64,000 nucleotides of DNA. Origin: Rubrivirga sp. SAORIC476. Lineage in GTDB: Bacteria > Bacteroidota > Rhodothermia > Rhodothermales > Rubricoccaceae. The notes below the pieces were generated by a model, which saw only the letters and a program-made list of their open reading frames with translations, was not told the origin of the DNA and made no database searches. Both the position numbers and the translations under genes were made by a program. This document shows positions 15,236-34,983 of the stretch, piece after piece (the stretch's first letter is position 1; every line of letters starts with the position of its first letter). Location: contig NZ_MVOI01000003.1 in the NCBI RefSeq assembly GCF_002283555.1, forward strand, positions 580,536 to 644,535. The letters run 5' to 3'.

Positions 15236-15304
15236 CCCGCTCCGGAGCTGCGCCCATGCCGTGGCTGCCGGTCGGCCGGCGTCGGCATCGGCCCCGCCCG
15301 GCTG

Positions 15305-15333
15305 CCGGGTGCTCCCCTACGACGGCACCCCGG
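15305..15333. repeat. Intergenic hairpin with CCCCTAC loop
   Basis: Inverted arms 15305-15312 and 15325-15333 (one bulged base) enclose a 12-nt loop containing CCCCTAC. Lies between the porin-like gene and the Usp gene, just beyond the porin terminator. Member of the CCCCTAC hairpin set described in the findings. Confidence 0.45.
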
Positions 15334-16766: not shown

Positions 16767-16796
16767 GGGAAGGAGGGGATGGGGGGTGAGGGGCCG

Positions 16797-17357: not shown

Positions 17358-17382
17358 GGCGGGAGCGGCGAGAGCAGACGGT

Positions 17383-17955: not shown

Positions 17956-18277
17956 GGCTGGAGGGGGGCGAGAGCGGACGACGCCAAGGTGCCCGTCGGC
18001 CGTCCCGCTCTTTGCCAGCGACGGTCCGCGATGGTCCGTAGGCCGCGGACCTCACCCCCCTGTGGGGCCTGCCCCCGCACATCTGCCCGGCCACGCCTCG
18101 CCATACAACCCGCCGGTTTTTCCACTCACCATTCCGGCACCCGGCCGGCCATGACCGACCGTGGGGCCATGCCTTACGTATCAGAGGGATGAAGCCCGAG
18201 CGCGAGACGTGGAGCCTCCCTGCAGACCGCCGGCGCCGCCCGGCCGACGTTGCGGGCCTCCTCTCGCCTCCGGCACC
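17956..18277. other. Divergent intergenic region (322 nt) with inverted repeats
   Basis: Separates the minus-strand YceI operon from the plus-strand TonB-like gene, so it should hold both promoters. An 8-bp inverted repeat (18023-18030 with 18044-18051, 13-nt spacer) could be a hairpin or operator. CCCC-TGT-GGGG follows at 18057-18067, and a run of five T at 18117-18121. No convincing ORF or RNA gene is visible. Confidence 0.5.
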
Positions 18278-19003: not shown

Positions 19004-19286
19004 CCCCGTCCGCCTCGGCACGGCGGCAGACGCGGGGCGGCGGCAGCGGGGCCGTCGCCCCTCTCTGTATCGGCGAGCCGCGCGGTCGGAGGCACGAGCG
19101 AAATGAGGCAGCGTCCCGCGTGTGGGCGCCGTCGCGGTCCTGGCGGCACGCCCGAGGCGGAGAGCCGGCTGTAAGGCATGCCCCTACAGGCCCGACCGCG
19201 AGCGCCCGGCCGGGGCCTGCGGGGCCGACCGTCCCGCCCCCTCCCCTCGCGTGGGTCACTTGGAGCCGTCACCCCCTTCGCCCCCG
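19004..19286 (+). other. Upstream region of the cbb3 oxidase locus
   Basis: Gap of 283 nt between tonB-like and ccoN. It holds GC-rich inverted sequence and a CCCCTACAGG element at 19181-19190, about 97 nt before the ccoN start. I see no FNR/Anr-type dyad (TTGAT-N4-ATCAA) and no clear TAnnTTTG box, so the oxygen control common for cbb3 genes in Proteobacteria is not supported here. Confidence 0.4.
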
Positions 19287-20813: not shown

Positions 20814-20911
20814 GTCGCAGCGAACGGCCGGTGGCCGAGCCCGATGGTCCTCCCCACCGCCTCTCTGCTCCTGGCGCCCTCCGCCCGGTCCCTGGCCCTC
20901 CTCCCCTCCCC

Positions 20912-21652
20912 ATGAGCCGCTTCCTCTCCGCCAACGGCGCCCATCGCCGCCTCGAAGGCTGGCCGCTGGTCTTCACCGTCCTGACCACGCTCGCGATCCT
21001 CGTCGGTACTGTGGTCGAGTTCGCGCCCATCTTCCTCGTCGGCGGCGCCGTCGAGCCGCTGGAGACGCTGGAACCCTACACCCCGCTGGAGCTGGCCGGC
21101 CGCGACCTCTACATCGCCGAGGGCTGCAACAACTGCCACAGCCAGATGGTGCGGCCGTTCCAGGACGAGGCGCTGCGCTACGGCCCGGCCTCGACGGCCG
21201 CCGAGGGGGCCTACGAGACGCCCTTCCTGTGGGGCTCGAAGCGGACCGGCCCCGACCTCGCCCGCCTGGGCGGCAAGTACCCGCATCTGTGGCACGTGCG
21301 CCACATGGAGGAGCCGACGTCCACGTCGCCGGGCTCCATCATGCCGCCGTACCCGCACCTGCTCACGACCGAGCTGGACCTGGACGGCCTGCCGGCGAAG
21401 CTGCGCGGCCTCGCCCGCCTCGGCGTGCCCTACTCCCAGGCCGACGCGGCGGGCGCCGTCGCCACCGCCCGCGCCCAGGCCGACTCGGTCGCGGCGCAGA
21501 TCGTCGCCCAGGGCGGGCCGGACCGGCTGGCCGACCGCGAGATCGTCGCCCTGGTGGCCTACCTCCAGCGCCTCGGCGTGGACGCGGCCCGGGCCGCCGA
21601 GCCCGAGCCCGTCACGTCACCCGACACCGCCACCGTCGCCCTCACCCGCTGA
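20912..21652 (+). CDS. ccoO: cbb3-type cytochrome c oxidase subunit II (monohaem)
   Basis: Membrane-anchored c-type cytochrome, 246 aa from ATG 20912. N-terminal helix (about 17-45, WPLVFTVLTTLAILVGTVVEF) and the haem motif CNNCH in EGCNNCHSQMVRPF, the hallmark CcoO sequence; Met ligand likely in PGSIMPPYPHL. It passes electrons from CcoP to CcoN. The C-terminus (AEPEPVTSPDT) is a short acidic tail. Its start is preceded by a run of CTCCCCTCCCC rather than a Shine-Dalgarno sequence. ccoQ begins 4 nt after the stop. Confidence 0.96.
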   Translation: MSRFLSANGAHRRLEGWPLVFTVLTTLAILVGTVVEFAPIFLVGGAVEPLETLEPYTPLELAGRDLYIAEGCNNCHSQMVRPFQDEALRYGPASTAAEGAYETPFLWGSKRTGPDLARLGGKYPHLWHVRHMEEPTSTSPGSIMPPYPHLLTTELDLDGLPAKLRGLARLGVPYSQADAAGAVATARAQADSVAAQIVAQGGPDRLADREIVALVAYLQRLGVDAARAAEPEPVTSPDTATVALTR

Positions 21653-21655
21653 GCC

Positions 21656-21850
21656 ATGTGGAAAGACACCGTCCGAGCCCTCCAGACCGGCGCCCTCGCC
21701 GAGGTGGCCGTGGTCGCCTTCGTGGTCGCCTTCGTGCTGGTCGTGGCCTACGCCCTCACGATGTCCAAGCGCCAGCGTGAGGACCTGAAGCAGCAGCCGC
21801 TCGCCGACGACGGCGAGTTCTTCCCCGAGTCCGCCCCCGACCATGTCTGA
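21656..21850 (+). CDS. ccoQ: cbb3-type oxidase small subunit CcoQ-like
   Basis: 64-residue single-pass membrane protein between ccoO and ccoP, the position and size of CcoQ. One transmembrane segment (about 15-37), then a cationic-acidic tail typical of CcoQ (TMSKRQREDLKQQPLADDGEF). It is thought to stabilise the oxidase complex. The stop overlaps the ccoP start by 8 nt, indicating translational coupling. Confidence 0.85.
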   Translation: MWKDTVRALQTGALAEVAVVAFVVAFVLVVAYALTMSKRQREDLKQQPLADDGEFFPESAPDHV

Positions 21851-22520
21851 GCCCCTCCCCGCTGCCGAGCCCGACGGCCCGGCCGTCCCCGACCCGGCCT
21901 CCCCGCTCCGCGACGCCGACGCCGACGTCCTGCCCACCGTCGCCGTGGGCGAGGGCACCGACGACCTCGTCATCCAGGGCCACACCTACGACGGCATCCG
22001 GGAGTACGACAACCCGATGCCCGGCTGGTGGGTGGGCCTGTTCTGGGCCTGCGTCCTGTTCGCGCCGGTCTACATGCTAGGCATCCACGTGTTCGACTGG
22101 ATCGACACCTACGAGGAGGACTTTGCCGAGGCGGGCCAGCGGCTGGAGGAGGTCCGCGCGGTCTATGCGGCCACCGGGCCGTCCTTCAAGACCGACGAGG
22201 GCGCCCTCCGCGAGTACGCCGACGACCCGGCCTTCGCTGCCGCGGGCGCGGCCACGTTCGCCTCGACCTGCGCGACGTGCCACGGCACCCAGGGCGAGGG
22301 GCTCGTCGGGCCCAACCTGACCGACGCCTACTGGGTCCACGGCAACACGCCGAGCGACATCTACCGCGTGATCTCGGAGGGGGTGCTGGACAAGGGGATG
22401 CCCGCCTGGGACGCGTCGCTCTCGGAAGAGGAGCAGGCGCAGGCGATGGCCTACGTCCTCTCGCTCCAGGGCACCGACCCGCCCAACCCGAAGGCGCCCG
22501 AGGGCGACCTCGCGCTCTGA
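21843..22520 (+). CDS. ccoP: cbb3-type oxidase subunit III, single-haem CcoP
   Basis: Membrane-anchored cytochrome c, 225 aa. An N-terminal soluble stretch, then YDGIREYDNPMPGWW leading into one transmembrane helix (about 58-80); this EYDNPMPGWW motif is diagnostic of CcoP. Only one haem motif is present, CATCH near residue 141, followed by GPNLTD and a likely Met ligand in DKGMPAW. Proteobacterial CcoP carries two haems and is about 300 aa, so this is a short monohaem form. The start overlaps ccoQ by 8 nt. Confidence 0.95.
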   Translation: MSEPLPAAEPDGPAVPDPASPLRDADADVLPTVAVGEGTDDLVIQGHTYDGIREYDNPMPGWWVGLFWACVLFAPVYMLGIHVFDWIDTYEEDFAEAGQRLEEVRAVYAATGPSFKTDEGALREYADDPAFAAAGAATFASTCATCHGTQGEGLVGPNLTDAYWVHGNTPSDIYRVISEGVLDKGMPAWDASLSEEEQAQAMAYVLSLQGTDPPNPKAPEGDLAL

Positions 22521-22552
22521 CCCGCCGCCTCGGCCCCGAGGCGGAGCCCCTC

Positions 22553-23998
22553 ATGTCTGCATTCATCCCGGCCGACGCCGTCGGCATCCTCGACTCGCCC
22601 GAGGACGTCCTGTCCACGCTCCACGCCGACGGCTCGCGCCGCTGGCTCTACCCGACGCCCAGCACCGGGCGCTTCTGGCGCCGCCGGCTGCTCGTCGGCT
22701 GGGGCCTGATCGCGTTCTTCGTCGCGCTGCCCATCGTCAAGATCGGGGGGCGGCCGGCGGTGCTGCTGGACGTGGCGGCGCGCGAGTTCACGTTCTTCGG
22801 CTTCACCTTCTACCCCACCGACACGTTCTTCCTGATGCTGCTCGGCATCGCGCTGCTGGTGTCGGTGGCCCTGCTGACGGCGCTGCTCGGGCGCGTCTGG
22901 TGCGGCTGGGGCTGTCCGCAGACGGTGTATCTGGAGTTCCTGTACCGCCCCGTCGAGCGGTTCATCGAGGGTCCGGAGCACGTCCGCGCGCGGCGCGACG
23001 CGGGCGGCTGGACGCTCGACAAGGCCTGGCGGAAGGCCGCCAAGTGGGGGGTCTACGTGGTCGTCTCTGCGTTCCTCGCCCACACCTTCACCGCGTACGT
23101 CGTCGGGTGGGAGCGGCTGATCGGGTGGATGACCGGCCCGCCGACCGAGCACTGGCCCTACTTCGTGATGGCGACGCTCACGACCGGGCTCGTGCTGTTC
23201 GACTTCGGCATCTTCCGCGAGCAGATGTGCACCATCACCTGCCCGTACGCTCGCTTCCAGTCGGTGCTGCTGGACCCGGACTCGCTGATCGTGTCCTACG
23301 ACCCGGCGCGCGGGGAGCCTCGGGCGAAGCGGGGCAAGAAGGCGCTCGCGGCGGAGGCGACGGGCGAGGCGCCCCCCCTGGGCGACTGCATCGACTGCGC
23401 CGCCTGTGTGCGGACGTGCCCGACGGGCATCGACATCCGCGACGGGCTCCAGATGGAGTGCATCGCCTGCACGCAGTGCATCGACGCCTGCGACGCCATC
23501 ATGGACCGGCTGGACCTGCGCCGCGGGCTGATCCGCTACACGTCCGAGCGCGCGCTGGAGGGCGCCCCGACGCGCGTCGTCCGCGGGCGGACGGTGGCGT
23601 ACGGGCTGCTGCTGCTGGCCGTCGGGACCGTGTTCACGATCGCGCTGGCCACGCGCCAGCCGTACGACATCGACCTCGGGCGGGCGGTGGGCGACCCCTT
23701 CGTGGAGCTGGCCGACGGGACGGTCGCCAACCGCTTCCGGCTGCGGGTCCGCAACCAGACCGCGACCGACGGCAGCGTGCGGCTGGACCTGCTGGCGCCC
23801 GAGGGCGGAACGCTCCGCGTGGGGGCCGTCCAACCGGTGCCGGTGGCGTCACGCGCGATGGCGCGCGTAGAGGGCTTCCTCGTCGTCCCCGAGGCGGCGT
23901 TCGGGGGCGACGCGCAGACCCCGGCGGTCGTCCGCCTGACGTTCGCCGACGGGAGCACGCGCGACGTGCCGTTCACGCTGCTCGGCCCCAGCCGCTGA
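22553..23998 (+). CDS. ccoG: cbb3 oxidase accessory ferredoxin-like protein CcoG
   Basis: Membrane protein with two [4Fe-4S] motifs, 481 aa from ATG 22553 (a longer open frame from 22028 is a shadow of ccoP). Several N-terminal helices include WCGWGCPQTVYLEFLYRPVE and REQMCTITCPYARFQ, both typical of CcoG/RdxA. The ferredoxin segment has CIDCAACVRTCP and CIACTQCIDACD (about residues 281-325). A final helix precedes a C-terminal IG-like FixG domain (about 375-481). CcoG is a cupric reductase that supplies Cu(I) for CcoN assembly. It starts 32 nt after ccoP. Confidence 0.95.
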   Translation: MSAFIPADAVGILDSPEDVLSTLHADGSRRWLYPTPSTGRFWRRRLLVGWGLIAFFVALPIVKIGGRPAVLLDVAAREFTFFGFTFYPTDTFFLMLLGIALLVSVALLTALLGRVWCGWGCPQTVYLEFLYRPVERFIEGPEHVRARRDAGGWTLDKAWRKAAKWGVYVVVSAFLAHTFTAYVVGWERLIGWMTGPPTEHWPYFVMATLTTGLVLFDFGIFREQMCTITCPYARFQSVLLDPDSLIVSYDPARGEPRAKRGKKALAAEATGEAPPLGDCIDCAACVRTCPTGIDIRDGLQMECIACTQCIDACDAIMDRLDLRRGLIRYTSERALEGAPTRVVRGRTVAYGLLLLAVGTVFTIALATRQPYDIDLGRAVGDPFVELADGTVANRFRLRVRNQTATDGSVRLDLLAPEGGTLRVGAVQPVPVASRAMARVEGFLVVPEAAFGGDAQTPAVVRLTFADGSTRDVPFTLLGPSR

Positions 23999-24014
23999 CC
24001 GCGCCGGCCCTGTG

Positions 24015-24048
24015 GGGCCGCCCCCTACACGGGCTGACGGGGCGGCCC
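24015..24048. repeat. GC-rich inverted repeat after ccoG
   Basis: Perfect 10-bp arms (24015-24024 and 24039-24048) around a 14-nt loop; CCCCTACACGG straddles arm and loop (24022-24032). It sits 16 nt past the ccoG stop and about 90 nt before the next gene. No T tract, so it may be an RNA-stability or processing hairpin rather than a terminator. Confidence 0.55.
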
Positions 24049-24140: not shown

Positions 24141-24317
24141 ATGACGCCGCCTCCCTCCGATCGCCGCCCCCCGCTCGTGCCGCCGCACATCGCGTGGCCC
24201 GCGTTCGTCATCCTGTTGCTGGTCATCAGCGTCGTGGCTGCCGTGGGCACCCTGATCGCGGCCCGCTCCGACGGCGGAGTCCGCATGGTCGAGACGCCGA
24301 CGCACGCGGCTCCGTGA
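24141..24317 (+). CDS. 58-aa single-pass membrane protein in the cbb3 locus
   Basis: Short protein from ATG 24141: Pro-rich cytoplasmic start, one strong transmembrane segment (about 19-42, AWPAFVILLLVISVVAAVGTL) and a short outside tail. Its stop overlaps the GTG start of ccoI (GTGA), which supports that it is really translated and coupled to ccoI. By position (after ccoG, before ccoI) it corresponds to CcoH/FixH, but those are about 150 aa and this lacks the FixH soluble domain. It could be a minimal CcoH or an unrelated small subunit. The preceding 142 nt carry a strong inverted repeat. Confidence 0.75.
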   Translation: MTPPPSDRRPPLVPPHIAWPAFVILLLVISVVAAVGTLIAARSDGGVRMVETPTHAAP

Positions 24318-26788
24318 CCACGACCGTCCTCTCCCCTCCCCGCGACGCAGAGGCGGACGCGCCGTGCGCGCACTGCGCCCTGCCCGTCGGCCCCCGACCT
24401 GCGCGGACGGCAGCGGGCGAGGCGTGCTGCTGCACCGGCTGCGCGGTCGTCCGCGACGCGCTCGCCGAGGCGGGCTTCCAGGCAACGGTAGACCGGCTCC
24501 GCGAGGTCGCGCCCGGGCGGCGGGAGCGCCCCCAGACACCCGAGGCGCTGGCGCTGGCCGAACTCGACCACGCGGCCTTTCTGGAATCCTCCACCCGCCC
24601 CGTCGACGGTGGGCGCGAGGCAGACCTGTTCGTGGACGGCGTCCACTGCGCGGCCTGCGTGTGGGTCGTCGAGCGGCTGCCACACGAGATGCCGGGCGTG
24701 ACGGCTGCCCGACTGGACCTCCCGCGCGCCCGCCTCACGCTGACCTTCGACCCCGAGCGGGTGCGCCTGAGCGAGGTCGGGCGGTGGCTGGCGCGGTTCG
24801 GCTACGCTGCGCGTCCCTCCCGGCCCGAGGCGGGCACGGCGACGGACGCCGAGCGGGCTCTGCTGGTGCGGATGGGGATCGCGTGGGCGCTGGCGGGCAA
24901 CGTGATGCTGATCGCCTTCGCCCTCTACAGCGGCCTCGACGCCGACCCGACGGCGCCGCTGGCGAGCGCCGCCCGGTGGCTCAGCCTCGCGCTGATCGTG
25001 CCGGCGGTCGGGTACGGGGCCGCTCCCTTCTTCCTGCGCGCGTGGGCCTCAGCGCAGGCGGCGTGGCGGGCACGCAGCGTGCGGCACCTCCACCTCGACA
25101 CGCCGATCGCGCTGGGCATCGCCGTCGGCGCCGGGCAGAGCGCGTGGGCGACGGTGACCGGCCGCGGCGAGGTCTGGTTCGACTCGGTCGCCGTCCTGAT
25201 CGCGGCGCTGCTGACGGCCCGCTGGCTCCAGCTCCGGAGCCGCCGTCGGGCGGGCGAGGCGTCCGAGCGGCTGCTCGCGCTCGTGCCCCGCGTGGCCCGC
25301 CGCGTCGGACCCGACGGCACGGCGTCCGCCGTGGACCTGGGCGAGATCCGCCCCGGCGACCTCGTGGAGGTTCCCCCCGGCGAGGTGGTGCCGGTCGACG
25401 GCGCCGTGGAGACGGGCGCCAGCCGCCTCGACCGAGCCGCGCTGACCGGCGAGGCCCGACCCGAGCCCGTCCGCCCCGGCGACGCCGTCGAGGCGGGGAC
25501 GACCAACCTGACGGCGCCGCTGCGCGTGCGGGCGGTCGCCGTCGGCGAGGCGACGCGCGTGGGGCGCCTGCTGGCGTGGGTCGAGCGCGGCGAGGTGCGG
25601 CGCGCGCCCGTGGTCCTCTGGGCCGACCGCCTCGGGGGCGCCTTCGTGCTGGCCGTGCTCGCGCTGGCCGCGGCGACGGCGGCTCTGTGGGCAGTCCTCG
25701 ACCCGGCGCAGATGCCGTCCCACCTCGCCGCGCTGCTCGTCATCACCTGCCCGTGCGCCCTCGGCATGGCGACGCCCCTCGCGCTTTCGGTCGCCTCGGG
25801 CCGCGCCGCCCGCGCGGGCGTGTTCGTCAAGTCCGAGGAGGCCGTCCAGCGGCTCACCGAGGTGGACACGGTCGTGCTCGACAAAACGGGCACGCTCACG
25901 GAGGGCCGGATGGACCTGGCGGAGACACACGGCTCGGAGGCCGCCATCGACCTCGCGGCGGCGCTCGAAGCCCACGCCACGCACCCCGTCGCGGACGCCT
26001 TCGTGCGCGCTCGCGGCGCCGGGGCCGGGCCGGTGACCTGCGTCGAGGCGGAGGCCGGGGCGGGGATCCGCGGCGTGGTCGCCGGCCACGCCGTCGTCGT
26101 CGGACGGCCGGACTGGGTCGCCGGGCAGACGCCGAGCCCTCTCCCTGCCGACCTCCGGCACGCCTTCCGGGGGGCCGCCGAGCGCGGACGAACGCCCGTC
26201 GCCATCGTCGTCGACGGGGCATGGGCGGGTGGCGTCGGCGTCGGCGACCGGCTTCGTCCCGAGGCCGCCGCGCTCGTCCGCCGCCTCCAGGCCGATGGGA
26301 CCGCCGTCCACCTGCTCTCCGGCGATGACCCGGCCGTGGTCGCCGCCGTGGCCCGCGAACTGGGCATCGCCGAGGCACACGGAGGCGTCTCGCCCGAGGC
26401 CAAGCGCGACCGCATCGCCGCGCTCCAAGCCGAGGGACGCGTCGTGGCGATGGTCGGCGACGGCGTCAACGACGCCGCGGCGCTCCGTCAGGCAGACGTG
26501 GGGGTGGCCGTCGGTGGCGGCTCGACCGCCGCCCTGGTCGCCGCCGACGTGTTCCTCACGCGACCCGGCATCGGCGCGCTCGTCGAGACCCTCGACGGCG
26601 CCGGGCAGGCCATGCAGACGGTCCGCCGGCTTCTCGCGCTCTCGCTCGCCTACAACGTCCTGGGCGCCTCCGCGGCCCTCGCCGGCCTGGTGACGCCGCT
26701 CGTCGCCGCCGCCGCGATGCCGGTCTCGTCGCTCGCCGTCGTCGGGCTCGCCCTCACCCAGCCGTCCTTCCGGCGCCGCCGACCGTGA
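24314..26788 (+). CDS. ccoI: Copper-exporting P1B-type ATPase for cbb3 assembly (CcoI-like)
   Basis: Heavy-metal P-type ATPase, 824 aa. GTG start at 24314 overlaps the previous stop; the ATG-led frame from 24194 adds antisense-like residues. The N-terminus has the Cys-rich CAHC/CCCTGC segment usual in CcoI/FixI ATPases. An HMA domain with CAAC (C112, C115) follows, then eight membrane helices with the CPC ion motif (C479-P-C481), the phosphorylation site D523 in DKTGTLTEG, an HP motif, and GDGVNDAAAL. It moves Cu(I) across the inner membrane for the CuB site. Overlaps ccoS by 4 nt at its end. Confidence 0.95.
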   Translation: MTTTVLSPPRDAEADAPCAHCALPVGPRPARTAAGEACCCTGCAVVRDALAEAGFQATVDRLREVAPGRRERPQTPEALALAELDHAAFLESSTRPVDGGREADLFVDGVHCAACVWVVERLPHEMPGVTAARLDLPRARLTLTFDPERVRLSEVGRWLARFGYAARPSRPEAGTATDAERALLVRMGIAWALAGNVMLIAFALYSGLDADPTAPLASAARWLSLALIVPAVGYGAAPFFLRAWASAQAAWRARSVRHLHLDTPIALGIAVGAGQSAWATVTGRGEVWFDSVAVLIAALLTARWLQLRSRRRAGEASERLLALVPRVARRVGPDGTASAVDLGEIRPGDLVEVPPGEVVPVDGAVETGASRLDRAALTGEARPEPVRPGDAVEAGTTNLTAPLRVRAVAVGEATRVGRLLAWVERGEVRRAPVVLWADRLGGAFVLAVLALAAATAALWAVLDPAQMPSHLAALLVITCPCALGMATPLALSVASGRAARAGVFVKSEEAVQRLTEVDTVVLDKTGTLTEGRMDLAETHGSEAAIDLAAALEAHATHPVADAFVRARGAGAGPVTCVEAEAGAGIRGVVAGHAVVVGRPDWVAGQTPSPLPADLRHAFRGAAERGRTPVAIVVDGAWAGGVGVGDRLRPEAAALVRRLQADGTAVHLLSGDDPAVVAAVARELGIAEAHGGVSPEAKRDRIAALQAEGRVVAMVGDGVNDAAALRQADVGVAVGGGSTAALVAADVFLTRPGIGALVETLDGAGQAMQTVRRLLALSLAYNVLGASAALAGLVTPLVAAAAMPVSSLAVVGLALTQPSFRRRRP

Positions 26789-26940
26789 ACGTCCTCTACG
26801 TCCTCGTCCCCCTCGCCCTCGGCCTCGCGCTCGCCGCCGTGGCCGCCTTCCGCTGGGCCGTCCGCGACGGCCAGTTCGACGATGTCGAAACGCCCGCCCT
26901 CCGCATCCTCCTCGACGACCTCTCCGACCCCGATGACTGA
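26785..26940 (+). CDS. ccoS: cbb3-type oxidase assembly protein CcoS
   Basis: 51-residue protein with GTG start, from an overlapping GTGA junction with ccoI. Begins VNVLYVLVPLALGLALAAVAAFRWAV, one transmembrane helix, followed by the CcoS-typical segment RDGQFDDVETPALRILLDD. CcoS is required for insertion of cofactors into CcoN. Its end overlaps the next gene by 8 nt, so the chain of coupled genes continues. Confidence 0.93.
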   Translation: MNVLYVLVPLALGLALAAVAAFRWAVRDGQFDDVETPALRILLDDLSDPDD

Positions 26941-27970
26941 CGCTTCTGCCCGCGCCGCCTCCGCGCGCCCCGTCCCGACCGCGCCCGTCGACGGCGCCGT
27001 CGCGCCCCTCGACGCCGTCGTGTTTCGGTGGACCGCGCCGCCCGGCACCCGCGTGTTCGACCTCCGCGTGGCCACCGCTGCGGCGCCCTCCGACGCCCTC
27101 TTCGAAGTGACCGGCCTCCCCTCGACCGAGGCGACGCTGGCCGGCGCCTTGCCCGCGGGCGACCTGCTGTGGTGGGTCCGCCAGGAGGGCGGCGCCTGGA
27201 GTGCCCCGGCGCGCTTCCACGCAGGAACGCAGGCCGATGTCGAGATCGCCCACCGCGCCGAAGCGGAGGCCGCCGCGCGCCGTCGCGCGTCCGAGCGAGC
27301 CGCCCAGGCGTCCGACATCCCGGACGCGCCCCCGCCCGCCCCGGTCTGGCCCTACGCCACCGGCGACGCCCTCGACGGCGCGCCCGAGGTGGACTGGGCG
27401 CGCGTGCCCGGCTTCGGCGCCCCGGCGCGCGCGGCGCTCCCCCGCGCCGGTGCCGCCGCCCCCACCCTGCTCGGTCCGCTGGGCGGGGAGGTGGCCGACG
27501 CCGGGACCGTGGCCCTCCGCTGGACCAGCGTGCCCGGCGCCGACCGCTACGAGGTGGAACTGTCGCCTCGGACCCGCTTCGACGCCGACGTGCTGACGCT
27601 CGACGCGGGGGGCGCGACCGAGCTGGTGCTGCCGGGCGTGGTCCCGGCCGCCGGGCACAAGATGCTCTGGCGCGTCCGCGCGCACGTCGGCAGAGGCGCG
27701 ACGGCATGGAGCCGCTACGGCCGCTTCTACCCCGCCGACGCCGACACGGCGGAGCGCTTCTCGCTGGCGATGGACCGTGCGCGCACCGCGCAGCGACTCC
27801 AACGCGACCATGCCCGGCGCGTGCAGCAACGGGAGATGGACCTGATCCCGCTCCACGAGCGCCCGGACGCGGTGACCTCGCAGGCGATGGTGACCGCGAT
27901 CCTGGCGATGGTGGTGTCGAGCGGCCTGCTGATCGCCCTCGCCGCCGTGTTCGCCGCCGTCTGGCTGTAG
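26933..27970 (+). CDS. FN3-like tail-anchored protein of unknown function in the cbb3 locus
   Basis: 345-residue protein from ATG 26933, overlapping ccoS by 8 nt and thus coupled to oxidase assembly genes. I do not recognise a named family. Two fibronectin-III/Ig-like modules are suggested: about 15-100 (APLDAVVFRWTAPPGTRVFDLRV, LLWWVRQEGGAWSAPARF) and about 175-265 (VALRWTSVPGADRYEVELSP, KMLWRVRAHVGRGATAWSRYGRFYP). An Ala/Arg/Glu-rich linker joins them. A basic, helical stretch (about 275-315) is followed by a single C-terminal transmembrane segment (about 318-343). There is no N-terminal signal peptide, so the modules probably face the cytoplasm with the tail in the membrane. Confidence 0.75.
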   Translation: MTDASARAASARPVPTAPVDGAVAPLDAVVFRWTAPPGTRVFDLRVATAAAPSDALFEVTGLPSTEATLAGALPAGDLLWWVRQEGGAWSAPARFHAGTQADVEIAHRAEAEAAARRRASERAAQASDIPDAPPPAPVWPYATGDALDGAPEVDWARVPGFGAPARAALPRAGAAAPTLLGPLGGEVADAGTVALRWTSVPGADRYEVELSPRTRFDADVLTLDAGGATELVLPGVVPAAGHKMLWRVRAHVGRGATAWSRYGRFYPADADTAERFSLAMDRARTAQRLQRDHARRVQQREMDLIPLHERPDAVTSQAMVTAILAMVVSSGLLIALAAVFAAVWL

Positions 27971-28002: not shown

Positions 28003-28707
28003 CTACGGCGTCGGGAGGCAGACCTCGACGCCGTGGTGGGCCGCCGCAGGCCCCGGCGTGAGGGCCGACGCCCCGCGCGCGACGGTCAGCACGCCGATGG
28101 CGACGACGAGCACGCCCGCGAGCTGCTGCATCCTGCGGCGGCTGGTCGGACGGAGGCGCCCGCTGAGGACGCCCGCCAGCGCCAGCGCGGGGACCGTCCC
28201 GAGCCCGAACACAGCCATCGTGAGCGCCCCCGTGGCCGCCCCGCCCGTGGTCGCGGCGACGGCCAGCATGCCATAGACGAGGCCGCACGGCAAGAGCCCG
28301 TTCACCATGCCGAGAGCGACCAGCGCCCCCCGCCTCGGCGACGCCAGGAGCCGGGCGATGACGGACGACAGCCGCGCGGCCAGCCGTCCGCCAGGGGCCG
28401 TGCCGCGCGCCCACCCGACGCCGCACAGGCCCAGCCCGAGCCCGACCATCGCGGCGCCGAGGCCGACGCTCACCACCCCGCCGAAGGCGCCGAACAGATC
28501 CGCCAGCGACGCGCCGAAGGCGCCCGCCAGCGCGCCGAAGAGGGCGTAGGTGGCCGTCTTCCCACCGAAGTAAGCGGCCTGCCGGGCGGCGACCTCACGC
28601 CGGGCGCCCGCGCCGAGCCACACCACGAACCCGCCGCACATCCCGACGCAGTGGGCGCTGCCCAGGAGGCCAGCGGCGAAGACGGCGGCGAGGTCGAGGG
28701 GGGTCAT
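28003..28707 (-). CDS. DsbD_2/SafE-like six-helix membrane protein
   Basis: Integral membrane protein, 234 aa from ATG 28707. Six or so helices; the family signatures GSAHCVGMCGGF (near residue 15) and GLLPCGLVYG (near 140) place it in the group often labelled sulfite exporter TauE/SafE, which belongs to the DsbD transmembrane (DsbD_2) clan. Cysteines in helices 1 and 4 can relay thiol electrons. Such genes often sit beside cbb3 oxidase genes, and a role in copper or haem-cysteine chemistry is suspected. Convergent with the FN3-like gene (32 nt), with no T-tract terminator between. Confidence 0.85.
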   Translation of the reverse strand: MTPLDLAAVFAAGLLGSAHCVGMCGGFVVWLGAGARREVAARQAAYFGGKTATYALFGALAGAFGASLADLFGAFGGVVSVGLGAAMVGLGLGLCGVGWARGTAPGGRLAARLSSVIARLLASPRRGALVALGMVNGLLPCGLVYGMLAVAATTGGAATGALTMAVFGLGTVPALALAGVLSGRLRPTSRRRMQQLAGVLVVAIGVLTVARGASALTPGPAAAHHGVEVCLPTP

Positions 28708-28782: not shown

Positions 28783-28825
28783 CCGTGTAGGGGTCCGCCC
28801 GGCACCGGCCGCCGAGACGGCCGGG
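28783..28825. repeat. CCCCTAC-associated GC-rich inverted repeat
   Basis: The minus strand reads CCCCTACACGG at 28793-28783. It is flanked by nested GC-rich inverted sequence (CGCCCGG with CCGGGCG; CCGGCCG with CGGCCGG). Located in the 195-nt divergent gap between the DsbD_2-like and nitroreductase genes. Confidence 0.4.
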
Positions 28826-28902: not shown

Positions 28903-29880
28903 ATGCCCGACCTCCACCGCGACGCCCCCGCCCCTTCCGACCTCGACGCGCTCCTCGAGGTCGCCGTCCGCGCTCCGAGCCTCCTCAACTCCCAACCCTG
29001 GCGCTTCGTCGTCTCAGGCACCGGCGTGCTGCTCTTCGCCGACCGCGAGCGTCAGCTTTCCGCACTCGACCCGGACGGCCGCGAGTTGACGATGAGCTGC
29101 GGCGCGGCGCTCTACTACCTCCGCGTCGCGGCCCGGCACGCGGGCTGGGCGCCCGGCGTCCTCCCCTTCCCCAGTGGCGACGCGGACCTGCTCGCGGCCG
29201 TCACCTTCGAACCCACCGCTCCGCCGTCGGCCGACGACCGGCACTACCGGGCACTCTTCGCGCGCCACACGAACCGTCGTCCCTTCGCCGACGCGCCGGT
29301 CCCCCTCCCGGTCCTGGTCGAGCTGGCGCAGGCCGCCGCCGCCGAAGGCGCCTCGCTGGCCATCCTGGACACGCAGGACGAGAAAGATGCCCTGGCCGAC
29401 CTCGTCCGCGACGGCGTGCTGACGCAGGGCAGCGACCGAGAGGTGACCGCCGACATCGAGCGCTGGCTGCGCCCGGACGGCGACCCGCGCCCCGACGGCG
29501 TCCGCGACGGCGTCCAGGGGATCTGGGACCGCCACGCCGCCATGCGGACCCCGCCCTCGTCGGTGGCCGCCTACAAGAGCCGACTCATCCGCGAGACCCC
29601 CGCCGCGCTCGTGCTCACCACGGACGGCGACACCGAGGCGGACTGGCTGGCGGCGGGACAGGCGCTCGCACGCGTCCTCGTGACCGCCGCCGACCACGGG
29701 CTCGCGGCGTCGTACGCCAACGAACCGGTCGAGGTGGATGCCCTCCGCTCCCGGGTCAGCAGCCTCGTCGGCGGGCAGGTGTCACAGGCCGTCTTCCGGG
29801 TCGGCGCCCCGCAGGTGGAGCCCGCGACCAGCCGCCGCGGCGTCCGCGACGTGGTGGACCATCTCGGCGACGACGCGTAG
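28903..29880 (+). CDS. Nitroreductase-like (Acg-family) flavin protein
   Basis: 325-aa protein of the nitroreductase fold, closest by recall to the Acg/Rv2032 group of two-domain FMN-binding proteins. It shows VAVRAPSLLNSQPWRFVV (the SxxNxQPW flavin loop), MSCGAALYYLRVAARHAG, the internal ALFARHTNRRPF motif typical of Acg proteins, and a C-terminal AGQALARVLVTAADHGLAASYAN. Cytoplasmic, no signal. Acg-type proteins may store or sequester FMN under hypoxia; neighbourhood with a cbb3 oxidase and Usp proteins would fit low-oxygen or stress physiology, but that is inference. Confidence 0.85.
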   Translation: MPDLHRDAPAPSDLDALLEVAVRAPSLLNSQPWRFVVSGTGVLLFADRERQLSALDPDGRELTMSCGAALYYLRVAARHAGWAPGVLPFPSGDADLLAAVTFEPTAPPSADDRHYRALFARHTNRRPFADAPVPLPVLVELAQAAAAEGASLAILDTQDEKDALADLVRDGVLTQGSDREVTADIERWLRPDGDPRPDGVRDGVQGIWDRHAAMRTPPSSVAAYKSRLIRETPAALVLTTDGDTEADWLAAGQALARVLVTAADHGLAASYANEPVEVDALRSRVSSLVGGQVSQAVFRVGAPQVEPATSRRGVRDVVDHLGDDA

Positions 29881-29897: not shown

Positions 29898-30551
29898 TCA
29901 GCGCCCGGCGCCTTCGCCCTCGACCCAGGTCACGGCGTGCTTCATCAGCTCGGTGCCGTTGGCGAGCCCCAGCTTGGTCTTGATCCGCGAGCGGTAGCTC
30001 TCGACCGTCTTGACGGAGAGGTGGAGGCGCTCCGATATCTCGCGCGTCGGGATGCCGCGGCCGGTCATCTCGAACACCTCCAACTCGCGGTCCGAGAGCA
30101 CCTCCAGCGGCGTCTGGGTGGCATCCTTGACGCCTGCGGCGGCGCCGAAGAGCAGCTTGTCCTTGAGGTCCTCGGAGAGGTGGATGCCCCCGCGGAGCAC
30201 GCGGCGGACGGCCGTCACGATCTGGTCGCCCGCGGCCAGCTTCGAGACGTACCCCCGCGCCCCGGCCCGGACGGCGCGCTCGGCGTAGAGGTCCTCGTCG
30301 TGACGCGAGACGACGAGCACGGGCAGGTCCGGGTGGAGCGCGAGGAGGTTCTTCATCAGCTCCAGGCCGTTCATGCCGGGCAGCGAGATGTCGGTCACCA
30401 CGAGGTCCGGCGCGACCGCGTCGAAGGTGGCGAGCGCCTCCTCGGCGTCACTGGCCTGCCCGGCGACCTCGAAGTCGGGCTCGGCGTCGAGCGTCATGGC
30501 GATGCCCTGGCGCAGAAGGGGGTGGTCGTCGACGAGAAGGATGCGGGTCAT
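29898..30551 (-). CDS. NarL/LuxR-family response regulator
   Basis: 217-aa regulator starting at ATG 30551. Receiver domain with DD pair (LLVDDH), phospho-acceptor D54 in VTDISLPG and K106 in YVSKL. The LuxR helix-turn-helix is at about 150-205 (LSDRELEVFEMTGRGIPTREISERLHLSVKTVESYRSRIKTKL). Overlaps the upstream histidine kinase by 4 nt (ATGA), so the pair is translationally coupled and surely cognate. Convergent with the nitroreductase gene, 17 nt apart. Possible targets are the adjacent Usp genes, which is inference. Confidence 0.94.
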   Translation of the reverse strand: MTRILLVDDHPLLRQGIAMTLDAEPDFEVAGQASDAEEALATFDAVAPDLVVTDISLPGMNGLELMKNLLALHPDLPVLVVSRHDEDLYAERAVRAGARGYVSKLAAGDQIVTAVRRVLRGGIHLSEDLKDKLLFGAAAGVKDATQTPLEVLSDRELEVFEMTGRGIPTREISERLHLSVKTVESYRSRIKTKLGLANGTELMKHAVTWVEGEGAGR

Positions 30552-32143
30552 GAGGGGGAGGCGTAGGAGTGGAAGCCGGGGCCGCGCAGCGGGACGGTGC
30601 AGGTCACGACGGTTCCGCCCTCCGCCCCCGGGCGGATGTCGAGGGCGCCGCCCGCGAGACGAGCGCGGTAGTGCATGATGCGGAGGCCCATGCCCCGGGC
30701 GTCGGTCGGCCGGATGGGGGCAGAGAGGCTCGCCTCGGCAGCGGCCTCGGGCGAGGCGTCGGGCGGCCGGGCGGAGGGTGCGAAGCCCGAGCCGTCGTCC
30801 TCGACCCGGAGGCGGAGCTGGGTCGTGCCACGGACGAGGACCACGCGGACGTGGGCGGCGCGGCCATGCTGGACGGCATTCGAGATGGCCTCCTGCGCGA
30901 TCCAGAACAGGTTGGTGGCGGCGTCGGCGTGGAGCGCGCTCGCCTCGGCAGGCCCAGAGCCCGTCGTCTCGGCCGTCACCGCGGCGCCGTAGAGCGACGC
31001 CGCGCGTCGGGCGAGGCGGCCGAGGGCCGCCTCCAGGCCGTTCTGCTCCAGTTCGACCGGCACCAGCGAGCGCGCCAGCCCGCGCGCGTCGGCGTCCGCA
31101 TCGGCGACGAGGCCGACGAGGCGGTGCGCCTCGGCCGCGTGCTCGGAGTCGTCGGCGTCGAGGTTCTTGGCGAGCCCGCGCAGGAACAGGCCGATGGCGG
31201 TCAGCTGCTGGCCCAGTCCGTCGTGGAGGTCCTGCCCGATGCGGCGGCGCTCGGCCTCGGCCACGCGGAGCACCTCGCGCTCCAGCAGCCGCCGTTCCGA
31301 GATGTCGCGCACGATGCCCGTGAACACGACGCCGCCGCCGTGCAGCGGCACCTCGCTCACGGCCAGGTCCATCGGGAACGTCGCGCCCGACTTGCGCCGC
31401 CCCACCACCTCGCGCCCGATGCCGATGATGCGCCGGACGCCGGACTCGCGGTAGTTCTCCATGTACCCGTCGTGCTCCGAGTGGAACGGCTCCGGCATGA
31501 GCACGGTCACGTTCCGCCCGATCACCTCGTCGGGGGCGTAGCCGAAGATCCGCTCGGCACCGGCGTTGAACGTCTCGATGCGGCCCCGCGTGTCGATCGT
31601 GATGACGCCGTCGACCGTCGTCTCGAACACCGACAGCGCGCGGGCGCGGCTCTCTTCGAGGGCGTGGCGCGTGTCGTCCAGGGCGAAGCGGGCATGCAGA
31701 GCCCCGGCGGCGGCGCGCAGGAACGCCCACGCCTCGGGCGGGAACGCGTCGGCCTCGGGCGACAGCGCCGCCAGCAGCGCGAACGGCCGGTGCTCCGTCC
31801 CGACGCGGACCACGAGGCCCCCGCCGACACCCGCTGCCGCCAGCGCGGGGGGCACCGGCCGGAGTTCGACGCAGGTGGCTCGGTCGAGCGCCTCTCGCAG
31901 CACGCCCTCGACCGGGACCGGGCCGGGCGGCGCCTCCCACCCCGCCACCACCGACGCCCGGAGCGCCTCGGGCTCCTCGTCGTCGAACGCAAACAGGGCG
32001 GCACCTGCGCCGAGCGCGTCGGCGATGATGGCGGCCTCCGAGCGGCCGGTCGCGTCGACAGACCCGAACCCGGCCTGACCGAGCTCTCGCAGGGCGAGCT
32101 CGGCCAGCGGCGCGGCTAGGTCGGGAGGGAGGGTCCGGGTCAC
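30548..32143 (-). CDS. GAF-PAS sensor histidine kinase (HisKA_3 type)
   Basis: 531-aa soluble kinase with GTG start at 32143 (no in-frame ATG is suitable). Order: GAF-like region about 20-155, PAS about 168-290 (VFETTVDGVITIDTRGRIETFNAGAERIFGY, NVTVLMPEPFHSEHDGYMENY resembling the FixL-type PAS), HisKA_3 with H307 in RRRIGQDLHDG, HATPase with NAVQHG, EDDGSGF and GMGLRIMHYRA. The PAS core (ERIFGY, MPEPFHSEHD) is like that of FixL haem oxygen sensors; haem binding would need a proper His ligand and is unproven. Coupled to the LuxR regulator by a 4-nt overlap. Confidence 0.92.
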   Translation of the reverse strand: MTRTLPPDLAAPLAELALRELGQAGFGSVDATGRSEAAIIADALGAGAALFAFDDEEPEALRASVVAGWEAPPGPVPVEGVLREALDRATCVELRPVPPALAAAGVGGGLVVRVGTEHRPFALLAALSPEADAFPPEAWAFLRAAAGALHARFALDDTRHALEESRARALSVFETTVDGVITIDTRGRIETFNAGAERIFGYAPDEVIGRNVTVLMPEPFHSEHDGYMENYRESGVRRIIGIGREVVGRRKSGATFPMDLAVSEVPLHGGGVVFTGIVRDISERRLLEREVLRVAEAERRRIGQDLHDGLGQQLTAIGLFLRGLAKNLDADDSEHAAEAHRLVGLVADADADARGLARSLVPVELEQNGLEAALGRLARRAASLYGAAVTAETTGSGPAEASALHADAATNLFWIAQEAISNAVQHGRAAHVRVVLVRGTTQLRLRVEDDGSGFAPSARPPDASPEAAAEASLSAPIRPTDARGMGLRIMHYRARLAGGALDIRPGAEGGTVVTCTVPLRGPGFHSYASPS

Positions 32144-32163
32144 GGCATGGCAGGAAGGGGATG

Positions 32164-32170
32164 CAAGCTA
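32164..32170 (-). promoter_or_regulatory. Putative -10-like box TAGCTTG
   Basis: Minus-strand CCTAGCTTG in the 46-nt gap between the Usp gene and the kinase, 20 nt before the kinase GTG. Identical heptamer precedes three other transcription units here. Suggests a separate promoter for the kinase/regulator pair. Confidence 0.55.
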
Positions 32171-32189
32171 GGCCCCCCGGCAGTCGGGC

Positions 32190-33398
32190 TCACGCGACCA
32201 CGGGCGTCCGCACGGAACGGACGGTCACCCGCTCCCGGGCGCCGTTCGCACCGACCACGTCGAACGTCCACGGCCCCGGAGCCTCCGGGTCGCTCACCCC
32301 CTCCGCGGCCCAGGCGCCCGCCTCCGACCGGACCGCGAACGGGCGGACGACGTGGTGCTCGCCCCCCGTCACAGCGATGTCGAGCGTGTCCGCCCGCGGG
32401 TCGTACGTCATGCCGACGAACGGGGCGGCGCGGAAGACCGGCCCCACAGCGTCGGACGAGACGACGTCGACCGACACCTCGTGCGGCGACGCCGCGGCAT
32501 GGCGCGAGAGAGCGTCGAACAGGTCGGGCCAGTCCTCGCGGGGCACGGCCGGCGCCGACGGGCGATCGGGACGGATGAGCGAGCGGGCGCCCATGCGGAG
32601 CGTCAGCACGGGACAGGAGGCCTCGCGCACCACGTCCTCGGCGACGCTTCCCAGCAGCCAGCGGCTGAGCCCGCGCCGCCCGTGGCTGGCCTGGACGACG
32701 AGCCCGGCGGACAGCGCGTGGGCGGCGGTCACGATCTCGTGAGCCGCGTCCCCGTAGCGCACCGCCGTCTCGATCGGGACGCGCTCGGCGAAGGGAGCGA
32801 CCCAGGTGTCGAGCGTGGCCTCGACGCCCTCCGCCAGGTCCCGCGTGTCGAGCGGCGGCAGCGCCATCATGTAGGGCACCGGCACGTCGATCGGTTCGAT
32901 CACGTGCAGCGCCACCCCATGCGTGCCGAGCGCCTCCGCCAGGGCCGCCGCGGTCTCCAGGCTCACATCCGACGCCGAGTCGAACGCGAGCGGCGCGAGC
33001 ACCGGCCCCACCGCGGCTCCCGCGGCGCGCGGACTCACGGTCAGCACCGGGCACGGGGCCCGCCGGAGCACAGACTCGACCGTCGAGCCGAGGGTGAGCC
33101 GGTCGATCCCGGTCCGCCCGTGCGTGCCCATGACCAGCAGGTCGGCGCCGATCTCCTCGGCGTACGCCAGGATCGCGTCGGCGGGCATGGGGAAGCGGCG
33201 ACGGACCTGGACGACACCGTCCGCCTCGATGCGCGGGGCGGCGGAGGCGGGCGCCACGCTCCCGGTCGCCGCCGCATCCACCCGGAGGACGTGCAGGGTA
33301 GCGCCGTGGCGCGTCGCGAAACGCTCGGCCAGGGGCCGGGCCGCCTCGGCCGCGGACGAGTCGTCGGTGGGGAAGAGAACCGTCTGGACGTGCAGCAT
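32190..33398 (-). CDS. Tandem universal stress protein with C-terminal extra domain
   Basis: 402-aa protein: Usp domains at about 1-130 and 135-275, plus an unusual C-terminal module (about 285-402). Domain 1 carries GTHGRTGIDRLTLGSTVESV and domain 2 ASHGRRGLSRWLLGSVAEDV, the ATP-loop patterns. The extra module begins PREDWPDLFDALSRHAAASPHEVSVDVV and ends WTFDVVGANGARERVTV. It resembles the small stand-alone DUF5335-type proteins as I recall them, a tentative match. It lies 19 nt after another double Usp gene and before the kinase pair. Confidence 0.9.
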   Translation of the reverse strand: MLHVQTVLFPTDDSSAAEAARPLAERFATRHGATLHVLRVDAAATGSVAPASAAPRIEADGVVQVRRRFPMPADAILAYAEEIGADLLVMGTHGRTGIDRLTLGSTVESVLRRAPCPVLTVSPRAAGAAVGPVLAPLAFDSASDVSLETAAALAEALGTHGVALHVIEPIDVPVPYMMALPPLDTRDLAEGVEATLDTWVAPFAERVPIETAVRYGDAAHEIVTAAHALSAGLVVQASHGRRGLSRWLLGSVAEDVVREASCPVLTLRMGARSLIRPDRPSAPAVPREDWPDLFDALSRHAAASPHEVSVDVVSSDAVGPVFRAAPFVGMTYDPRADTLDIAVTGGEHHVVRPFAVRSEAGAWAAEGVSDPEAPGPWTFDVVGANGARERVTVRSVRTPVVA

Positions 33399-33417
33399 GG
33401 GAGGAGGGAGTTGAGGG

Positions 33418-34365
33418 TTAGAACGGGAGCGGCGGCGCCGTCGCCGCGACCGGTCGGGGCGAAGACCGAAGCGACGCGGCCTCCTGGAGCGTCAGCACGG
33501 GGCAGGGCGCCCGACGGATCACGGCCTCGGAGACGCTGCCGATCAGGCGCGCGAGCCCGGTGCGGCCGTGGGTGCCGAGGACCACGGCCCCGGCGCCGCG
33601 CTCACTGGCCAGCGCGGCCACCAGCCGACCGGGTGCGCCGAGCCCGACGTGGAGCGCAGCCGGGGAGCACACCGTCGCCGCGAACCGCTCCAGGCGCTCG
33701 CGCACGGCGGCCCCCTGCTCCGGGTCGAAGTCGACCAGCGACAGGATGTGAGGCGCCAGCCCCGGGTACGGCCCGGCGTCGCGGACGACGTGGACCACCT
33801 CGACCGGCGCTCCGGTCGCCTCGGCGAGCACGCAGCCCGCCGCCAGCGCCCCCCGGCTGCGCTCCGAGAAGTCGACGCCCACCAGCACGGGCGCCTCGGG
33901 CCCCGGTCCGTCGACGGCGCCGCGCTCGGGGACGGTCAGCACCGGGCAGGGGGCGCTCGCCACGAGCGCCTCGGCGACGCTGCCGAGCAGCGCCCTCGAC
34001 AGCCCCGACCGACCGTGCGTGCCGACGACCAGCAGGTCCGGATTGACGGCGCCGAGGTAGCGCAGCACAGCCGCGTGGACCGACACGTCGCGGACCACGG
34101 CCACTGTCGGCTCGAGGCGGTCCAGACCGTCAGCATCGCGGAGCCCCAGCGTCTCCATCGCGAAGCGCTCGACGCGGACGCGGAGCGCGCTCGCGGGCAC
34201 GGCGTCGGGTGCGGCGCCATCACCCGACGCGTGGAACAGCACGTCGGCGTGGAGCAGGTGGAGGACGGCCCCCGACCGGCGGGCGAGGTCGGCCGCACGC
34301 ACGAGCGCGACGGCAGCGCCGGGAGAGAAGTCGATGGCGGCGACGACGGTGCGGAGAGACAGCAT
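33418..34365 (-). CDS. Tandem universal stress protein (two Usp domains)
   Basis: 315-aa double Usp. Domain 1 (about 1-145) starts MLSLRTVVAAIDFSPGA and has GTHGRSGLSRALLGSVAEAL; domain 2 (about 155-300) has GTHGRTGLARLIGSVSEAV. Both keep the nucleotide-binding loop. The starts of this protein and of the 14271-15203 protein are nearly the same (MLSLRT), which implies paralogy. Same-strand neighbours are the small exported protein (12 nt gap upstream) and the extended Usp (19 nt downstream), an apparent operon. Confidence 0.93.
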   Translation of the reverse strand: MLSLRTVVAAIDFSPGAAVALVRAADLARRSGAVLHLLHADVLFHASGDGAAPDAVPASALRVRVERFAMETLGLRDADGLDRLEPTVAVVRDVSVHAAVLRYLGAVNPDLLVVGTHGRSGLSRALLGSVAEALVASAPCPVLTVPERGAVDGPGPEAPVLVGVDFSERSRGALAAGCVLAEATGAPVEVVHVVRDAGPYPGLAPHILSLVDFDPEQGAAVRERLERFAATVCSPAALHVGLGAPGRLVAALASERGAGAVVLGTHGRTGLARLIGSVSEAVIRRAPCPVLTLQEAASLRSSPRPVAATAPPLPF

Positions 34366-34377
34366 GACAGGGAGGGG

Positions 34378-34863
34378 CTACAGAGCGAGGGGGGCGTCGG
34401 CGGCACGGAGCGCCCACCAGTGGCCCACCTCCGGGATCGTGTCGATCCGCGTGCCGACGCTGCGGAACCAGCCCTCCAGGCGGCCGTCGTCGGACAGGGT
34501 GCCGCGGAACTCGGTCTCCAGCGGAAGGCCCCACGCGGGGTCGTCGTAGCGGACGAGCGTGCCGCGCACCGTCCGGTCCTCGACGGTCACGTGGTGGACG
34601 GCCAGCGGGACGGGCGCGGGCATCGGGTCGTCGGCGGTCGGGCGCGGCACCATCAGCACGAGCGCGCGGACGGAGTCGGCGGTCGCGGCGAGGCGGAACA
34701 CCACGGTGCCCTGCCGCCCGCTGTCCTCGCCGACGTAGCCGCCCGCCCACTCTCCGACGAACGCCGCAAGGTCGGCCGGGTCGGCGGTGACGGGGGCGGC
34801 CGTCTGGGCCGCGCCGCCCGCTGAGGTGGCGAGGAAGCAGGCCGCGAGGAGGAGGAGACGCAT
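34378..34863 (-). CDS. Small exported hypothetical protein (161 aa)
   Basis: 161 aa from ATG 34863, with a signal peptide (1-20, ending near GGAAQ). I do not recognise a family. The mature part looks like a single beta-barrel or lipocalin-like domain: FVGEWAGGYVGED, TVVFRLAATADS, VHHVTVEDRTVRGTLVRYDDP, LEGWFRSVG. GEW...G openings occur in small binding proteins, but no ligand can be assigned. It ends 12 nt before a double Usp gene and may be its operon partner. Confidence 0.75.
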   Translation of the reverse strand: MRLLLLAACFLATSAGGAAQTAAPVTADPADLAAFVGEWAGGYVGEDSGRQGTVVFRLAATADSVRALVLMVPRPTADDPMPAPVPLAVHHVTVEDRTVRGTLVRYDDPAWGLPLETEFRGTLSDDGRLEGWFRSVGTRIDTIPEVGHWWALRAADAPLAL

Positions 34864-34949: not shown

Positions 34950-34983
34950 CCCCCGCCACCGTGCGGGGGAGACCCCTACACGC
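34950..34983. repeat. Hairpin followed by CCCCTACAC between hprK and the small exported gene
   Basis: Arms 34950-34956 and 34963-34969 (7 bp, 6-nt loop) lie next to ACCCCTACACGC at 34972-34983. Downstream of the hprK stop on the minus strand. No T tract; another member of the CCCCTAC-associated group. Confidence 0.4.

Follow-up and report, generated by a model that had tools for sequence, protein, structure and literature searches.

A five-gene operon of Rubrivirga sp. SAORIC476 (positions 29898–34863, minus strand) probably encodes an oxygen-sensing two-component system together with part of its own output, acting through a palindromic operator that recurs before neighbouring genes. All positions refer to the window, the whole stretch of 64,000 nucleotides (nt) that was analysed, which lies at 580,536–644,535 of contig NZ_MVOI01000003.1. 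A low-oxygen module at this locus had been proposed in a sequence-only reading of the same DNA. Such a module, with a predicted haem sensor and a candidate common palindromic operator, is supported by the sequence analysis, since neither the examination for a haem site nor the search for a common operator, as computed, went against it.

The first gene of the operon (34378–34863) encodes a small protein that matches no Pfam or NCBIfam family and, on inspection by eye, seems to begin with a signal peptide; its homologues precede a universal stress protein (Usp) gene in two relative loci (L039 and L043). It is followed by a tandem Usp (33418–34365; Usp 1.5e-51 in two stretches), a tandem Usp with a C-terminal DUF5335 (32190–33398; Usp 2.5e-48 in two stretches, DUF5335 8.9e-9), a sensor kinase of GAF-PAS-HisKA_3-HATPase architecture (30548–32143; PAS, HisKA_3 and HATPase_c in Pfam) and a NarL/DevR-type response regulator of 217 amino acids (29898–30551; Response_reg 8.9e-28, GerE 2.9e-15), all on the minus strand. 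The tight packing described earlier, five minus-strand genes with gaps of 12–46 nt and one overlap, was found in full, with gaps of 12, 19 and 46 nt and a 4-nt overlap (ATGA) between regulator and kinase. Usp matches occurred in 6 open frames genome-wide, three of which lie inside this 20-kilobase (kb) stretch. Among 20 relative loci from 19 genomes, chosen for presence of the kinase, the regulator adjoined the kinase in every case, and 19 of these kinase-selected loci had at least one Usp, Acg-like, cco, YceI or porin gene in the fetched stretch. Record titles of the kinase relatives named Rhodothermota, Balneolota, Bacteroidetes, Verrucomicrobiota and Planctomycetota.

The PAS domain of the kinase (31280–31660, minus strand) holds a predicted FixL-type haem pocket, supported by sequence comparison and by a structural model. 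When the kinase was searched against the Protein Data Bank (PDB), FixL haem-PAS domains ranked first (1d06, 4.9e-32; 1dp6, 1.5e-29), followed by Escherichia coli DosP and then by DesK-type kinases. All six pocket positions examined in the alignment (His224, Ile239, Ile240, Arg244, Leu260 and Val262) were identical to the residues of Sinorhizobium meliloti FixL. The roles in FixL of Ile209/210, Arg200/206, Leu236, Ile215 and Ile238 are as given in the available text of PMC10765370, and that of R220 is as given in a PDB title. PMC10765370 also places the Soret band of FixL at 418 nm in the oxy form and 434 nm in the deoxy form. The pocket His and Arg were present in all 33 rows of the order (the copy in the window counted among them) and in 80 of 80 (His) and 79 of 79 (Arg) readable rows among the best 80 of 452 named loci, a set that overlaps with the first. 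An AlphaFold2 model of the kinase, built on 36 alignment rows, had a predicted local distance difference test (pLDDT) score of 83 and a predicted template modelling score (pTM) of 0.56, and its PAS domain matched O2-bound FixL (1dp6) with a root-mean-square deviation (rmsd) of 1.5 Å over 116 columns (template modelling score 0.92 by target; Z 19.1).

The kinase had also been described as GAF-containing, which was borne out by the model, in which the N-terminus resembled GAF domains (3trc, Z 15.6, rmsd 2.7 over 149 residues), and not by Pfam, where the GAF_3 match was below threshold (E 0.038). This fold assignment rests on the full-length model; the GAF domain modelled alone from a single sequence had a pLDDT of 45 and was not used. 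No His was common to all eight GAF rows (the window and seven relatives), His150, present in five of the eight, was located in the connecting helix, and the PAS had no Cys in residues 165–292. Because the GAF lacks a fully shared His and the PAS lacks Cys, sensing of the DosS or NreB type is disfavoured. Of the two domains that the sequence-only reading had proposed to test for a haem-binding His, the PAS carries a FixL-type His and the GAF no shared one. The NCBIfam FixL model gave 129.3 bits against a cut-off of 850, the kinase core being of the HisKA_3 type with His307 as the likely phospho-acceptor, and VraS and DesK fit this core better than DosS.

Among solved structures, the regulator was closest to DevR (3c3w, 1.9e-32), NarL (1.1e-28) and VraR, with FixJ far behind (4.7e-14). 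The NCBIfam FixJ model gave 86 bits against a cut-off of 255, and the top NCBIfam model, UvrY/SirA/GacA, was also under its cut-off. The recognition helix of the regulator reads KTVESYR and includes Tyr186.

The candidate operator is an imperfect 19-base-pair (bp) palindrome, TGTAGGGnnnnnCCCTACA. A symmetric matrix, seeded by eye from five window promoters sharing the palindrome, yielded 7 sites of at least 14 bits in the 64 kb, all of them between 15.3 and 35.0 kb, and the next best match scored 9.5. Five were training sites (coordinates are given without strand): 34962–34980, 98 nt from the first start codon of the operon, with 2 mismatches; 28786–28804, between the divergent safE-like and acg genes (78 nt to safE, 98 nt to acg), with 2 mismatches; 19170–19188, 98 nt from the ccoN start, with 1 mismatch and, at 23.4 bits, the best score of the window; 18160–18178, 99 nt from the tonB-like start, with 4 mismatches, the most of any site (15.8 bits); and 15303–15321, 99 nt from a third tandem Usp, with 3 mismatches (15.4 bits). 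Two were outside the training set: 24011–24029, between ccoG and the genes for a 58-residue protein and ccoI, at a gap of 111 nt (1 mismatch; 18.6 bits), and 18061–18079, 105 nt from the yceI2 start (3 mismatches; 14.3 bits). Six of the eight palindrome-to-start gaps fell within 98–105 nt, with the start codons of the third Usp, tonB and safE chosen alongside the first look at the motif. The consensus with at most 3 mismatches matched the window 7 times, compared to 0.84 in shuffles; one of these matches (12895) lies within a gene, and the 4-mismatch site at 18160 is not among them. The palindromes, being imperfect repeats, were absent from the output of a generic inverted-repeat search. A candidate for the shared palindromic operator that the sequence-only reading proposed to look for was recovered before the genes listed there at 28903, 34863, 14271 and 19287, and also before genes outside its list (yceI-porin, tonB, the ccoI side and safE).

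The palindrome recurred in relatives. Across 99 relative loci, which span 1.55 Mb and leave out the window, we observed 64 sites of at least 15 bits, relative to a mean of 6.6 (maximum 18) for 30 scrambled matrices, and 35 of these sites lay at most 300 bp upstream of window-gene homologues (scrambled mean 0.6, maximum 4), namely ccoN (11), Usp2 (7), yceI2 (3), tonB (3), porin (3) and others (8). In 13 loci of other families, 18 sites were observed at 14 bits compared to a mean of 1.87 and a maximum of 11 for 200 column permutations, a control that allowed near-identical column orders. None of the 200 permutations reached the observed count at 14 bits in any of the three sets, and 2 of 200 reached it at 16 bits, in the window and in the family set. 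Twelve of 24 loci with Balneolota titles had a site of at least 13 bits no more than 1.5 kb after the regulator, 11 of them at most 400 nt before a porin match; the guanine-cytosine (GC) content of the Balneolota-titled loci is 41–54%, so that high GC is not the cause of these sites. Among 60 genomes, counted at no more than 1 mismatch, the 44 in which the kinase occurs (E below 1e-70) held 73 places, compared to 37 for the reversed control, with a place in 36 of the 44 and a control match in 25; the 16 kinase-free genomes held 7 places vs 12 for the control (Fisher p 0.02 for the kinase comparison), and a single genome, 81% complete and with a kinase-bearing congener, accounted for 3 of those 7. 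At a distance from the kinase, perfect sites separated a Usp gene from an Acg-like one in four Rhodothermus-like genomes (family f3). Near the kinases of Verrucomicrobiota and Planctomycetota there were few sites of at least 13 bits, and none before the target genes of the window.

The base outside the core of the palindrome differed with the recognition helix of the regulator. With helix KTVxxY (16 of 56 loci had such a core), 35 of 36 half-sites had a G outside TARGG, and with helix KTVxxH (18 of 37 loci) 15 of 44 did, a contrast between Tyr and His with a Fisher value of 1e-9; sites anywhere in the loci were counted. Two rearranged control patterns, taken together, gave 7 and 10 matches vs 18 and 22 sites.

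Several observations were made beside these results. Single sites lay near genes for an M1-peptidase-domain protein (L078), phosphoenolpyruvate carboxykinase (L179), a protein like pyruvate phosphate dikinase (L190), a multihaem cytochrome (L185) and an Rrf2-family regulator (L193); we do not claim a wider regulon, which the sites before the carboxykinase, dikinase-like and cytochrome genes, one genome each, make possible as far as sequence goes. The Rrf2-family site (genome G024) is a perfect palindrome 94 nt before the assumed start, and the layout is the same in L194 (G010). In a genome of the same genus (G003; L040 and L041), about 18 kb separate two kinase-regulator pairs, the second of which sits with ccoNOP, two Acg-like genes, Usp and TonB and has a kinase 61% identical to that of the window over residues 171–522. 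In L058 (G007), the kinase match is in two pieces with a TAG within the second, being either a pseudogene or an assembly error.

We propose that the PAS domain would bind haem b as FixL does, with bound O2 holding the kinase off. When O2 falls, the deoxy form would phosphorylate His307, from which the NarL/DevR-type regulator would in turn be phosphorylated; as a phosphorylated dimer, this regulator may bind the palindrome about 100 nt before start codons. Through the seven sites, eight promoters would be activated, those of the operon itself, acg, the safE-like gene, ccoN, the ccoI side, yceI-porin, tonB and the third Usp, with the site of the operon predicted to give positive feedback and no FixK/FNR relay being needed.

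Several points weigh against this reading, the first of them concerning the sensor. The switching arginine of FixL (Arg206 in Bradyrhizobium japonicum, Arg200 in S. meliloti) is Asn230 here, and an Arg occupies that position in only 8 of the best 80 of the 452 named loci. Moreover, one of three paralogue PAS domains of this genome has a His at the pocket position without the Arg; because of this paralogue, the His alone is no proof of haem, and the haem claim rests on the whole pocket. Among relatives, a Rhodothermus-like locus (L055) has kinase and regulator and none of the Usp, Acg-like, cco, YceI or porin neighbours in its fetched 20 kb, 29 of the 64 sites in relative loci are not near the start of any recognised homologue, 8 of the 24 Balneolota-titled loci have no 13-bit site (in three of these 8, the contig stops less than 200 nt from the match to the regulator), and no place at 1 mismatch or fewer occurs in 8 of the 44 kinase-bearing genomes. 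The covariation of Tyr and His with the outer base amounts to only two helix switches on a tree from which the DNA-binding columns had been left out, and a descent-aware test of it is therefore without power. The figures for the window sites are partly circular, because the matrix was seeded by eye from them. Finally, in the genome of 4.48 Mb, the 8 places with 2 mismatches or fewer are split evenly, four outside the cluster and four inside, and at up to 3 mismatches there were 52 places vs 147 for the reversed control. As the 3-mismatch pattern is rarer than its control, only close matches are informative.

The altered arginine and the paralogue His also speak for a kinase that senses another signal, such as redox state, a ligand, nitric oxide or carbon monoxide, through a PAS that merely resembles that of FixL, leaving the operator and regulon real and not driven by oxygen; the GAF, as a second domain, could then bind another ligand. 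The identity of all the examined pocket residues with S. meliloti FixL argues against this, as does the presence among the palindrome genes of those for the cbb3 oxidase and its assembly, whose products function in respiration at low oxygen, and we consider it unlikely.

In our view it is quite unlikely that the palindrome serves a different regulator or is a promoter element of a general kind. Binding of the regulator to the palindrome is a prediction, the genome encodes 5 proteins with cyclic nucleotide monophosphate-binding domains, one with a weak Crp-type helix-turn-helix (E 0.025) and one with a helix-turn-helix seen by eye, and at 3 mismatches the palindrome is no commoner than its control. 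Close matches are rare, however, with 2 places at no more than 1 mismatch in the whole genome, both in the cluster; they are commoner in kinase-bearing genomes, and their outer base differs with the recognition helix. Control by FNR or FixK found no support: no Crp (PF00325) match was found, all nine HTH_Crp_2 matches were below cut-off, and of 13 FNR-like matches (2 mismatches), a number above the 1.39 expected in shuffles, none fell in the eight promoters.

A true DosR/DosS-like system, with the GAF as haem sensor in a cluster orthologous to the mycobacterial dormancy regulon, is very improbable, since the nearness of DevR to the regulator, the shared Usp and Acg-family genes and the match of the kinase ATP domain to DosS among others (Z 13.9) are set against a GAF without a fully shared His, a haem pocket of the FixL-type PAS, a kinase core better fitted by VraS and DesK, and no DosR box in the window at 3 mismatches or fewer, using the consensus that we take for that box. 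DosR membership was rejected on the tests of GAF, operator and sensor, and the DosR-like label given earlier holds in part, for the structural affinity of the regulator and the Usp and Acg gene content, and not for the type of sensor and operator.

Under the preferred reading, an oxygen-sensing two-component system acting through the palindrome, the predicted targets outside the operon lie between positions 14271 and 29880. The adjacent flavin protein had been called Acg-like; it is an Acg/Rv3131-family flavin mononucleotide oxidoreductase (28903–29880, plus strand) at 273.9 bits with NCBIfam NF047509, above the cut-off of 199. Divergent from it is a DsbD_2/SafE-type membrane protein (28003–28707, minus strand; PF13386, 3.9e-44), and a protein without a Pfam family (26882–27970) lies between this gene and ccoI. 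The cbb3 oxidase noted beside the operon was likewise confirmed, as ccoN, ccoO, ccoP and the accessory gene ccoG (19287–23998, plus strand), which matched TIGR00780 (686 bits for ccoN), TIGR02745, FixO (2.4e-82) and Fer4_18/FixG_C. Downstream are the 58-residue protein, which has one hydrophobic stretch, and a ccoI/fixI-type copper P-type ATPase (24141–26788, plus strand; E1-E2_ATPase, HMA). Further genes are a TonB-C protein (18278–19003, plus strand; PF03544, 3.6e-19), the yceI2-yceI1-porin-like genes (15450–17955, minus strand; YceI 4e-10 and 1.6e-9), a trio found again in relatives, and the third tandem Usp (14271–15203, minus strand; PF00582, 3.8e-45 in two stretches). The porin-like protein has no Pfam family and was named by eye. 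An Rfam search of 13–36 kb gave no RNA element at gathering score, and no sigma-70 consensus was found in 26.5–36.2 kb, a result that is uninformative in a genome of 72% GC. A further HisKA_3 kinase (with Reg_prop propeller and Y_Y_Y) with a LuxR-type regulator beside it occupies 9715–13348; no palindrome stands in front of this pair, and one 3-mismatch match lies inside the kinase gene.

Compared to known systems, the operon resembles FixLJ of rhizobia and Burkholderia in its predicted haem-PAS sensor with the same pocket, in the linkage of a two-component system to cbb3 (fixNOQP/fixGHIS) genes and in a LuxR-type output domain. It differs in the HisKA_3 kinase core, the non-FixJ regulator and the replacement of Arg206/200, and also in that no FixK-type relay was found and the palindromes stand directly before the cbb3, Usp and Acg genes. 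With DosRST/DevRS of Mycobacterium it shares a HisKA_3-type kinase, a NarL-type regulator whose gene lies behind its own palindrome, and Usp and Acg in the set, but it has a FixL-type PAS sensor vs a haem GAF, no DosR box, and the cbb3 and yceI-porin genes in the set. In the available text of PMC3110807, acg is under DosRS control; here, the Usp and Acg genes both stand behind the palindrome, by position, and their regulation by it is predicted.

NreABC of Staphylococcus is similar in kinase and regulator type, having a PAS O2 sensor kinase and a regulator that binds a GC-rich palindrome, according to the parts of PMC8139620 and PMC5694512 available. Unlike the PAS described here, which is without Cys, NreB has a 4Fe-4S cluster, and NreABC targets nitrate/nitrite genes. 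The NreC site, TAGGGN4CCCTA, resembles the TAGGGN5CCCTA seen here, with a spacer that differs by one base, although these exact strings were not found in the literature searched. No NreC site sequence is printed in the available part of PMC9918477. NmpRSTU of Myxococcus xanthus, as far as the available text of PMC11841059 goes, is a pathway that relies on haem, and its oxygen-utilization regulon contains a cbb3 oxidase and, as discussed there, Usp. It differs in its globin sensor, multi-component relay and NtrC-like regulator. The lxa locus of Burkholderia cenocepacia contains Usp genes and, in the part of its description available, is alike as a low-oxygen-activated cluster linked to Usp, but it belongs to a different phylum.

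The system is thus a hybrid: it is not DosR proper, because it lacks the GAF His and the DosR box, and not FixLJ proper, because its kinase is NarL-type and its regulator is not FixJ. In the literature searched, FixL was not found together with Rhodothermus or Balneol-, it appeared with Salinibacter only for photoactive yellow protein in the text available, and the motif strings of the palindrome were not found. We regard the system as a real, conserved hybrid of known kinds that was not found described in this literature, where absence is not proof. A broader proposal, to which we give roughly even chances, is that in Rhodothermota and Balneolota a FixL haem sensor has been combined with a kinase of the NarL type and with a DevR-like regulator that directly, without FNR or FixK, commands cbb3, tandem Usp/Acg and YceI/porin/TonB genes through one conserved operator, and that the same pair reaches Verrucomicrobiota and Planctomycetota, with helix and outer operator bases having diverged together. 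For two little-studied phyla, the hybrid system provides a specific candidate for the oxygen sensor, along with a predicted operator and the genes that it may control, and it would add to DosRST and FixLJ another haem switch that unites cbb3, Usp and Acg genes. Because the palindrome is short, it lends itself to direct testing, and with it members of the regulon could be recognised by sequence alone in many genomes of uncultured organisms.

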